From Arthrobacter sp. NicSoilB4 (GTDB taxonomy: Bacteria > Actinomycetota > Actinomycetes > Actinomycetales > Micrococcaceae), in contig NZ_AP024653.1 of the NCBI RefSeq assembly GCF_019977335.1, forward strand, positions 620,001-684,000: a stretch of 64,000 nt of DNA. Reading direction: 5' to 3'. The notes beneath the pieces are model-generated. The model did not search any database and was not told the DNA's origin. It saw only the letters and a list, made by a program, of their open reading frames with translations. This document shows, in pieces, positions 55,447-57,629 of the stretch. A program made the position numbers and the translations under genes. The stretch's first letter is position 1, and every line of letters starts with the position of its first letter.

Positions 55447-56595
55447 ATGACTGAGAACTACACGGCCCTTTACGAAGAGCACAAGAAGCTCGGCGCCTCC
55501 TTCACGGACTTCGGCGGCTGGCAGATGCCACTGAAGTACAGTTCCGAACTCGCCGAGCACCACGCCGTCCGCAAGTCCGCGGGCCTGTTTGACCTCTCCC
55601 ACATGGGCGAAGTCTGGGTCACCGGCCCCGACGCCGCAGCCTTCCTGGACTACGCCCTGGTCGGCAAGATCTCCGCGATGGCGATCGGCAAGGCCAAGTA
55701 CTCGCTGATCTGCAACGCGGACGGCGGCATTATCGACGACCTCATCACGTACCGGCGTGACGACGAGAAGTTCCTCGTGGTTCCCAACGCGGGCAACGCC
55801 AAGGTCGTAGCCGCGGCCCTGGCCGAGCGTGCAGGTTCTGCCAAAGAAGGCGGGTTCGACGTCACCGTCGAGGACGCGTCCGCACGGACCTCGCTGATCG
55901 CGGTGCAGGGGCCCAAGGCCGAGGAGATCCTGCTGCGCCTGGTCCCGGCCGCGCAGCACGAGCTCGTCACCGGCCTGAAGTACTACGCCGCCGTCGAGGT
56001 CCCGTTTATGTTCGGGGGCACCAGCCAGGATCTCCTGCTGGCCCGCACCGGCTACACCGGTGAAGACGGCTTCGAAATCTTCGTCGCCAACGACGACGCC
56101 GCCGCCCTCTGGCAGGCGCTCGTCGCCATCGCCGAGGACGGCGAACTGACCGCCGCAGGACTCGCGTCCCGCGACTCGCTCCGGCTCGAAGCCGGCATGC
56201 CGCTCTACGGCAACGAGCTCTCCCTCGACGGCGACCCGTACGCCGCCGGGCTGGGCCCGATCGTCGCCCTGTCCAAGGAAGGCGACTTCGTCGGCAAGGC
56301 CGCCCTGGCCGCCAAGAAGGAAGCCGGAGCCGGGTCCTCCACGGGCCGCAAGCTGGTCGGCCTCAAGGGCCTCGGCCGCCGGGCCGGCCGCGGCCACTAC
56401 CCGGTGCTCAAGGACGGCAACACCGTCGGCGAAGTCACCTCCGGCCAGCCGAGCCCGACCCTGGGCTACCCGGTCGCGATGGCCTACGTCGACGTCGAGT
56501 TCACCGAACCCGGCACCGCCCTGGACATCGACCTCCGCGGCAAGGCCGAGCCCTTCGAAGTTGTCGCACTGCCTTTCTACAAGCGCCAAAAGTAG
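55447..56595 (+). CDS. gcvT: Aminomethyltransferase, T protein
   Basis: 382 residues. It transfers the aminomethyl carbon from GcvH to tetrahydrofolate, releasing ammonia. Typical segments: FTDFGGWQMPLKYSSELAEH, GLFDLSHMGEVWV, RTGYTGEDGFEIFV and LEAGMPLYGNELSLDGDPY. It lies 13 bp after gcvP with GAAGGACAG as ribosome site. A 650-bp structured gap separates it from gcvH. Confidence 0.96.
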   Translation: MTENYTALYEEHKKLGASFTDFGGWQMPLKYSSELAEHHAVRKSAGLFDLSHMGEVWVTGPDAAAFLDYALVGKISAMAIGKAKYSLICNADGGIIDDLITYRRDDEKFLVVPNAGNAKVVAAALAERAGSAKEGGFDVTVEDASARTSLIAVQGPKAEEILLRLVPAAQHELVTGLKYYAAVEVPFMFGGTSQDLLLARTGYTGEDGFEIFVANDDAAALWQALVAIAEDGELTAAGLASRDSLRLEAGMPLYGNELSLDGDPYAAGLGPIVALSKEGDFVGKAALAAKKEAGAGSSTGRKLVGLKGLGRRAGRGHYPVLKDGNTVGEVTSGQPSPTLGYPVAMAYVDVEFTEPGTALDIDLRGKAEPFEVVALPFYKRQK

Positions 56596-56655
56596 CCCAA
56601 CAAGTACCCCAGCGGGACCGGGTGCCACAGCGGTACCCGGGGCCGGGGTTGTGTT

Positions 56656-56762
56656 GGCCCTTCGGGCCCGACATCCTCTGCATGCTCGGTCGCGAAGACG
56701 CCCGCTGGGCGGACGTGACGCTCCCTTAGACGCATGCTGCCGGATGCCGGGCCCGAAGGGCC
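56656..56762 (+). repeat. Structured repeat, copy 1
   Basis: The outer 21-bp arms 56656-56676 and 56742-56762 pair with one mismatch. Inside, GCATGC (56680-56685) pairs GCATGC (56732-56737), GTCGCG (56689-56694) pairs CGTGAC (56714-56719) with one G-T wobble, and CGCCC (56699-56703) pairs GGGCG (56707-56711). The core 56680-56725 is 43/46 identical to the reverse complement of 57120-57165. Confidence 0.85.
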
Positions 56763-57026
56763 CGGCCTCACCCGAGGTTTAACTCCGTAGGACAACCAAC
56801 CACCACAGGACCAACGGGAACCGGCGCCTTCGAAAGCCAAAGGTGCTGGGGGATGAACAGCCTGCCGAGGGTCGGCTTGTCCCGAGAGTGTGTAAGGGCA
56901 AGCTCGATCATTGCGGGGGTTGAGCTTGATGACACGCTTAAGCCGGGGAGCAGCCCGTCCCTCGAAGAATACGAACGGCAAAGGTTCTTTCCGGAGATCT
57001 GTTGGCCCCGAAAACTGAACTGAATA

Positions 57027-57188
57027 GTGGCGGATGAGGGGATTCCGGAAGCGTGCGTCTAAGGGGGGCCCACACCGTCAGGGTTCCCTGGCCGAGCTTG
57101 CGAGGCTAGGGAGACGGTGGGGAGCGTCGCGTCCGCCCAGCGGGCGCCTTCGCGACCGAGCACGCGGAGGAATTGCCTCATCCGCCAC
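57027..57188 (-). repeat. Structured repeat, copy 2 (inverted, with 57-bp insertion)
   Basis: The outer arms 57027-57039 and 57176-57188 are perfect over 13 bp. Relative to copy 1 it is inverted: core 57120-57165 plus segment 57044-57062 match copy 1 at 43/46 and 17/19 bases. Between them is an extra 57 bp (57063-57119) that forms its own stem (CACCGTC/GACGGTG). Its inner stem is GCGTGC/GCACGC where copy 1 has GCATGC/GCATGC, so both changed bases keep the pair. Confidence 0.85.
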
Positions 57189-57245
57189 CCAAACCCAGCC
57201 ACAATTGATTTAGCCCACGACTTTTCAAACGTAAAGGAAAAACAC

Positions 57246-57629
57246 ATGGCAAAAGTTGCCCCTGAACTGCAGTACTCCGACGAGCACGAGTGGGTTGCAC
57301 GGGAGGCCGGGAACGTTGTTTCCATCGGCATCTCCGCTGTCGCCACCGATGCCCTCGGCGACATCGTCTACGTGGACCTGCCCGAGGTGGGCGCCACGGT
57401 GACCGCGGGGGAGACCTGCGGCGAGGTCGAGTCGACCAAGTCCGTCTCGGACCTGTACGCCCCGGTCACGGGCGAGGTCACCGAGACCAACCCCGCCGTC
57501 GTCGACGATCCCTCGCTGATCAACAGCGATCCGTACGGCGCCGGCTGGCTCTTCAAGGTTGCCGCCGAATCGGACGGCCCGCTGCTCTCCGCGCAGGAGT
57601 ACGCGTCCAAGAACGGCGGCGAGCTGTGA
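57246..57629 (+). CDS. gcvH: Glycine cleavage system H protein
   Basis: 127 residues from ATG 57246 (AAAGGA upstream; longer frames run into the repeat). The lipoyl-lysine lies in [20 protein letters not shown] near residue 65. It shuttles the aminomethyl group between P and T proteins and lipoamide dehydrogenase. glyA overlaps its stop (GTGA). Confidence 0.96.

Follow-up and report, generated by a model that had tools for sequence, protein, structure and literature searches.

Several kinds of repeated palindrome have been described in bacteria. REP sequences and BIMEs are palindromic, mostly extragenic and situated at gene ends, in pairs of alternating orientation, and copy numbers above 100 are given for REP in the accessible portions of that literature. 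The Rickettsia palindromic elements (RPE) are approximately 150 bp in length and lie in frame in unrelated genes, as described in part of PMC10969869. In Neisseria and the Pasteurellaceae, inverted uptake signals form terminator hairpins at gene ends, the conserved part being an uptake word of 9–11 nt with approximately 1,000 occurrences (available sections of PMC1852404). Petrillo et al. defined families of repeated sequences by a common stem-loop, some of them in coding sequences; the accessible main text of that paper does not name Arthrobacter (PMC2267715). The hairpins analysed here, which lie between gcvT and gcvH of an Arthrobacter, belong to what is apparently an undescribed family of hairpin repeats, of low copy number and present in almost all sampled genomes of the host genus. 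By analogy, this family appears to work most like REP/BIME in its placement and most like RPE in its in-frame palindromes. No description of it was found in literature searches, which had most subscription journals outside their reach.

The window is the whole 64,000-nt stretch of Arthrobacter sp. NicSoilB4 DNA that was analysed. Its genes gcvT (55447..56595, +, above the cut-off of NCBIfam TIGR00528), gcvH (57246..57629, +, above that of TIGR00527), glyA and sdaA follow one another in that order, and two long imperfect hairpins with asymmetric internal loops are situated between the first two. Copy 1 is a long form (56652..56764), with its model strand on + and its better-paired strand on −, lying 56–60 nt downstream of the gcvT stop codon and matched at 130.8 bits (E 3.1e-28) by R1, a covariance model built from 37 copies. 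It consists of arms, a 3×4 internal loop, a 6-bp stem termed P2 and a long apical domain. Its fold energies are −70.6 (+) and −82.4 (−) kcal/mol, with z values of −6.9 for the model strand and −9.9 for the other, and none of 200 shuffles matched either. Copy 2 (57024..57193) is inverted, with its model strand on − and a fold on that strand, and lies 52–57 nt upstream of the gcvH start codon (R1, 93.9 bits, E 4e-19). Its apical domain holds a nested 57-nt hairpin module (57066..57122), and it is absent from the output of a second model, R2, built on the 86–89-nt short form with a few long forms. The spacer between the convergent copies (56765..57023) is 73–81 % alike over 218–237 nt in L007, L008, L014 and L016, with shorter matches elsewhere, and its own fold has a z of −1.74, with 10 of 200 shuffles equally good.

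The sequence-only reading had compared these two copies and had counted 43 of 46 shared core bases and 17 of 19 in a second segment. Alignment gave 52 nt at 92 % complementarity (56674–56725 with 57120–57171) and 22 nt at 91 % (56723–56744 with 57044–57065), in agreement with those counts at the level of segments rather than base by base. The two-sided change that it had reported, GCATGC/GCATGC in one copy against GCGTGC/GCACGC in the other, was read directly from the letters, as was CGTGAC against CGCGAC. The outer arms are indeed self-complementary in each copy (95 % over 21 nt and 90 % over 20 nt) and dissimilar between copies, and the 57-bp insertion of copy 2 has its own stem. Complementarity between the two copies likewise amounts to 92 %, and in the minimum-free-energy fold of the entire gap copy 1 pairs with copy 2. 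Direct reading of the letters found no T-run beside either copy on either strand. A terminator scan also reported nothing at the copies, but its loop range of 3–8 nt leaves it blind to hairpins with heads as large as these.

When the family is considered as a whole, each copy combines site-specific, mutually pairing arms with a common core and an apical tip that accepts further hairpin modules. The core comprises the internal loop, the 6-bp P2, a UUA or UUU bulge, and an apical domain whose UC/UC mismatches appear as GA/GA on the opposite strand. In the sense of the model strand, the order is arm, TCC/TTCC internal loop, P2 (GCGTGC/GCACGC), T-A, apical domain, bulge (TTA or TTT), P2′ and arm. 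The apical domain is either GC(TC)C-TTC-G(TC)GC or the long form found at gcv, and the internal loop reads TCAC/TTTCG or CC/TACA at some other sites. The head loops are purine-rich on the better-paired strand (GGAA/GGA and GA/GA). Several pairs switch jointly: GCGTGC/GCACGC alternates with GCATGC/GCATGC and GCGGGC/GCCCGC, and C-TTC-G alternates with G-TTC-C.

Pairing was scored in two alignments. In A4, comprising 48 copies aligned with MAFFT and with the structure assigned from these same sequences, the paired fraction of cells is 89.2 % and both sides have changed in 148 cells, against 83 for the best slid version. A5 holds 69 copies, drawn from seven genomes and aligned to the model, towards which it therefore leans; its corresponding values are 92.4 %, 329 and 101. 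In neither alignment did any of 500 shuffles reach the observed paired cells, two-sided cells or covariation score. Weaker measures were reached more often: the number of pairs with a two-sided change by 0 of 500 shuffles in A4 and 2 of 500 in A5, and the number of further pair types by 24 and 6 of 500, respectively. An arm position approximately six nucleotides from the internal loop carries A.C in 30 (column 97) or 36 (column 98) of the 48 copies of A4, and more rarely in A5 (20 or 26 of 69). It is apparent from these comparisons of related sequences that two-sided changes have preserved the fold, including among orthologous copies in the nadB reading frame, and the paired changes reported for the window are backed by many more sequences.

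The two strands of the hairpin are not equivalent: in most copies the better-paired one is the complement of the model strand. It gives the more stable fold in 155 of 170 distinct copies; for the seven-genome set the figures are 63 of 69 with RNA parameters and 65 of 69 with DNA parameters. The paired cells of A5 contain 54 A.C against 18 G.T mismatches (54:17 without the duplicate copy), together with 58 others; A.C on the model strand is G.U on the complement. Because the copies are related, none of these strand counts is independent, and some copies, such as L285, show the opposite trend. In the window, the complement strand runs along gcvH at copy 2 and against gcvT at copy 1. Since DNA parameters give the same trend, RNA and single-stranded DNA are not distinguishable here.

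Further copies, for which the sequence-only reading had recommended a search, were found both in the window's genome and in relatives, so that neither of the outcomes named there as refuting came about. Among the best 80 gcvH loci of relatives, nearly all of which are labelled Arthrobacter, Pseudarthrobacter or Paenarthrobacter and some of which come in twos from one genome, 53 were matched by R1. Together with the window they gave 93 matches, one of which (L074 4733-4845 −) reads a palindromic copy on its reverse strand. In an arrangement seen frequently, the gcvT (or glyA) stop codon is followed by a model-plus copy and the gcvH (or sdaA) start codon is preceded by a model-minus copy; the window's own glyA–sdaA gap holds no copy by R1. 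The window's genome contains, besides the two gcv copies, four others with E < 1e-5 (C1:1179126, 1225974, 2576788 and 3895926), and a weak match at 461510 (E 0.55 by R1, 8.9e-4 by R2). The gcvT–gcvH gap ranges from 20 to 653 nt among these best 80 loci, some genomes again contributing two. The proposal that the element has split the gcv operon is therefore unproven, as the same type of pair also occurs in the glyA–sdaA gap and at unrelated gene pairs.

With R1, 36 of 59 genomes of relatives and 12 of 197 genomes of the family were positive, and none of 22 genomes of other families. With R2 at E <= 1e-3, all 41 sampled genomes of the host genus were positive, with 1–16 copies each. At E <= 1e-4, 27 of 295 family genomes were positive, 22 of them from the host genus, four from genus g40 and one from g49, so that outside the host genus the repeats occur in five of these genomes, from two genera. 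At least two host-genus members, G163 and G194, gave no copies at the stricter filters of the 295-genome search. No sign of carriage by phages or viruses emerged: copy 1 had no match in phage records, and three exact core patterns had none in viral contigs. In the plasmid search copy 1 matched a single 1.35-Mb Arthrobacter replicon, in three places, and a stretch from L285 matched two Arthrobacter replicons and, over 35 nt, a Rhizobium replicon. For the stretches searched, Rfam 15 gave nothing above threshold, the only matches being to miRNAs, with 24.3 and 23.7 bits where the gathering scores are 85 and 49.

Placement relative to genes was determined, with a simple ORF caller, for 69 of 78 listed copies from seven genomes, the other nine being mostly gcv-region copies and weak matches. 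One row, L235, duplicates L231 through overlapping contig ends; it was left out of the placement counts and is among the 69 rows of A5. Sixteen copies lie between convergent genes, seven of them no more than 24 nt from each stop codon, and 27 lie between codirectional genes. Ten are in coding sequence and ten are unclear, including L238, which is in an open frame upstream of peptidase homology. Four lie in the gap between aceA and aceB, with MNSFTDNF taken as the aceB start, and the single divergent copy, one among 44 classified, depends on a doubtful ORF. In the codirectional class the model strand runs along the genes in 17 of 27, all 1–118 nt from the upstream stop codon, and is opposed to them in ten, nine of which lie 26–85 nt before the next start codon (L279, at 275 nt, is the exception). 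The copy between the isocitrate lyase and malate synthase genes, which are all on the − strand, is model-plus in L236 and L274 and model-minus in L246 and L282; its scores are low (26–45 bits), and spacer inversion or independent gain would be expected to produce such a flip.

The ten coding copies have homology on both sides and an open frame throughout. Six are in nadB (in six of the seven genomes), three in copA and one in an S58 peptidase gene, and further S58 and copA copies were found outside the 69-copy set; L244 lacks a NadB frame and is not counted as a nadB coding copy. Named L-aspartate oxidase profiles end at residues 483–491, shortly ahead of the element at residues 499–531, PRK07804 having a second stretch. 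The corresponding linkers vary among other genera, several being much shorter and some equally long, so that insertion of the nadB element relative to the NadB of other genera is weakly supported. The arms of the six nadB orthologues differ; 62 of their 72 cells are Watson–Crick pairs, and eight of 12 arm pairs have Watson–Crick alternatives that differ on both sides. Arm cells pair in 26 of 35 cases in copA, in 98 of 119 over all ten coding copies and in 602 of 691 over the other 58 copies. Other sites of the family lie at ald, at rlmB and at a gene that we take to encode a Clp ATPase.

Among 71 copies, 17.2 of 40 arm letters match for copies of one genome, 17.3 for copies of different genomes and 15.9 for shuffled letters, the highest cross-genome scores belonging mostly to orthologous or neighbouring sites. 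The arms are thus scarcely more alike than shuffled ones, and it is the core, not the arms, that is common to the copies. The ald stop codon provides an example, as three different arm sets carry the same core there in different species. Of 30 ald loci, 24 species were parsed (excluding L300, L306, L308, L311, L312 and L314), and 22 have a hairpin directly after the stop codon. Eight carry this element, 13 a different palindrome designated 'type B', one (L303, ahead of a different downstream gene) a third hairpin, one an arm without core, and one no hairpin. The folding z of the 22 hairpins, against mononucleotide shuffles, ranges from −3.2 to −8.2 (−3.2 for L287 and −4.1 for L313 over 170 nt). 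After rlmB, with 29 of 30 loci parsed (all save L340), the element is present in L315, and the remaining 28 carry repeats of other kinds or no repeat at all. Outside those 30 loci, G005, G008, G023 and G033 have a copy directly after rlmB. That the core inserts at the tips of hairpins already present in the host had been hinted at by L298, whose arm is as in L287 with the core absent, beside a different downstream gene, and by L313, with the 57-nt module inside its apical loop. When the collected loci were searched for hairpins that keep such arms but lack the core, none was found. Only L298 is ambiguous, and the idea is unproven.

Other repeat types were observed at these sites. The 'type B' palindrome after the ald stop codon reads ATCGATTGCTCCGTA ... 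CCTTTTG...AGAACG ... TACGGAGCAATCGAT and has paired changes of its own, e.g. GATTGC/GCAATC with GACTGC/GCAGTC (L286, L289, L291, L293, L295, L296, L299, L301, L302, L304, L305, L309 and L310). A separate module is the 57-nt hairpin of the CCCTAACCTCGCAAGCTCGGCCAGGGAACCC type, which occurs in both orientations, inside or beside larger hairpins, at window positions 57066–57122 and in L006, L007, L011, L014–L016, L019, L022, L028, L034, L038, L041, L050, L076, L079, L287 and L313. Units resembling GACGCTCTCTCACTTT, tandem or palindromic, fill intergenic gaps in the host genus, as in several of L315–L344 after the rlmB stop codon and in the gcvT–gcvH gap of L068, L077, L079 and L083. The window spacer (56763–57026) contains pieces like TTCGAAAGCCAAAGGTGCTGG, which resemble the remains of another hairpin (cf. 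L020).

Compared with the described systems, the family resembles REP/BIME in being palindromic, mostly extragenic, at gene ends and in pairs of alternating orientation. It differs in its copy number (1–16), in its long site-specific arms, in its presence in reading frames (10 of 69 copies) and in lacking a Y1 transposase in 40 of 41 genomes. That enzyme (HUH; PF01797) was found in one of 41 host-genus genomes, not the window's own, and in five of 14 control genomes, so that a RAYT/REP (TnpA-REP) system was rejected. With RPE it shares an in-frame palindrome in unrelated genes (here approximately 88–145 nt). It is set apart from the RPE descriptions by an unrelated organism, a mostly intergenic position, arms not common to the copies and few copies. 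As with the uptake-signal terminators, insofar as the accessible sections describe them, a repeated motif makes a gene-end hairpin; the conserved part here is, in contrast, the hairpin head. Like the families of Petrillo et al., this one is defined by a common stem-loop and has some members in coding sequence. Unlike MITEs, the copies have no terminal inverted repeat in common, their arms differing within one genome. At L290/L292, one closely matched pair of an occupied and a hairpin-less locus, inspection by eye showed no target-site duplication. The two window copies also differ from Rho-independent terminators in the lack of an adjoining T-run. The family was accordingly filed neither under REP, failing its transposase and copy number, nor under MITE, failing its shared ends. 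Of the earlier suggestion of a mobile hairpin element, what is supported is that the copies are dispersed, conserve their fold and are placed like REP sequences; membership of a known MITE or REP class is not supported.

The matched arms could be explained by mutation alone. According to the accessible part of PMC8794818, template switching makes multi-base compensatory changes, maintains hairpins and can also yield asymmetric pair frequencies, and spacer inversion has likewise been attributed to it (PMC8604942, in part). The copies would then be ancient quasi-palindromes in which template switching during replication keeps the arms complementary, with no selection on structure. The two orientations of the aceA–aceB copies (26–45 bits) and of the 57-nt module suit this account, as do arms that pair within coding sequence too (98/119 cells). 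However, nearly all copies seen retain asymmetric internal loops, the A.C mismatch of the arm has not been homogenised (30–36 of 48 in A4, though 20–26 of 69 in A5), and sites are common to several species. A.C also exceeds G.T 54:18, although PMC8794818 allows for such an asymmetry. We therefore consider upkeep by mutation alone unlikely, if worth keeping in view. A function purely as bidirectional transcription terminators or 3′-end stabilizers would account for the convergent and after-stop placement, with one divergent copy in 44 classified, and for the substitution of other hairpins after ald. It would leave the conserved core superfluous, however, and is at odds with the copies within nadB, copA and the peptidase gene, with the two window copies lacking an adjoining T-run, and with copies before start codons whose model strand is opposed to the genes. 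This restricted role appears rather improbable.

A non-autonomous mobile element (MITE or REP) that is still active, its transposase being encoded elsewhere, is more doubtful again. The dispersed copies, an occupancy that differs among species, in-frame copies, BIME-like convergent pairs and nested modules are in its favour; against it are the Y1 family's absence from 40 of 41 genomes, the lack of common ends, arms that differ among copies of one genome, sites common to several species, and the negative phage (copy 1) and viral-contig (three exact core patterns) searches. Finally, a cis-regulatory RNA, i.e. a riboswitch or attenuator, of the glycine/serine operon is hardly credible, in spite of the strong structure and of matches in 53 of the 80 best-matching relatives' loci, mostly in the gcvT–gcvH or glyA–sdaA region. 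Copies are situated at unrelated genes (the presumed Clp ATPase gene, ald, rlmB, nadB, copA) and in both orientations, Rfam gave no match above threshold, and no copy occupies the gap in close relatives, for instance L009 and L010. A glycine riboswitch or gcv-specific RNA was rejected on the other sites, the orientations and the Rfam result, and the structured RNA dedicated to gcv that had been offered as an alternative in the sequence-only reading is unlikely on the same grounds of site and orientation.

The explanation that we prefer, with about as much confidence as doubt, is that these are modular palindromic repeats of REP/RPE-like kind whose folded strand is selected, and which serve mostly as gene-end hairpins and sometimes as in-frame inserts. 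Conservation of the loops, together with the bias between strands, favours selection, while the pairing of arms in coding copies fits selection and template switching alike. Selection would act on a folded single strand, either RNA or single-stranded DNA during replication, which would be read by the cell or may formerly have been read by a mobilizing enzyme. Judging from the sequences, the intergenic hairpin is probably a sequence-tolerant gene-end structure, for which two-way transcription stop, protection of mRNA 3′ ends or insulation of neighbouring genes are candidate roles; the convergent gcv pair would separate gcvPT from gcvH-glyA-sdaA. Termination should not be the sole function, since a terminator in nadB would be harmful. 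Counting against the explanation are also the variable orientation relative to the genes, the lack of a T-run beside the window copies, the poorer pairing of the copA arms and the copies, such as L285, with the opposite strand trend. Copies in the linkers of NadB, CopA and the S58 peptidase would, by analogy with Rickettsia palindromic elements, be tolerated in-frame inserts. The repeats may have spread by a mechanism other than a Y1 transposase, and template switching at the palindrome may help to keep the arms matched. A bolder form of selection for the fold is possible, though tentative: a dedicated, putative host protein would read the folded hairpin head, interchangeable arms and plug-in tips would mark gene-end and internal sites chromosome-wide, and structural selection would extend even to the nadB frame.

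Small palindromic repeats are common, and a fold that is selected can seldom be told from one that is merely inherited. The orthologous copies of this family at many sites, one of them in nadB, constitute a natural test of selection on the fold. If such selection is confirmed, a hairpin can be held in a protein gene through its fold, and the same hairpin would be usable as an interchangeable gene-end part. If, on the other hand, template switching explains the family, it would offer a clean bacterial example of structure maintained by mutation only.
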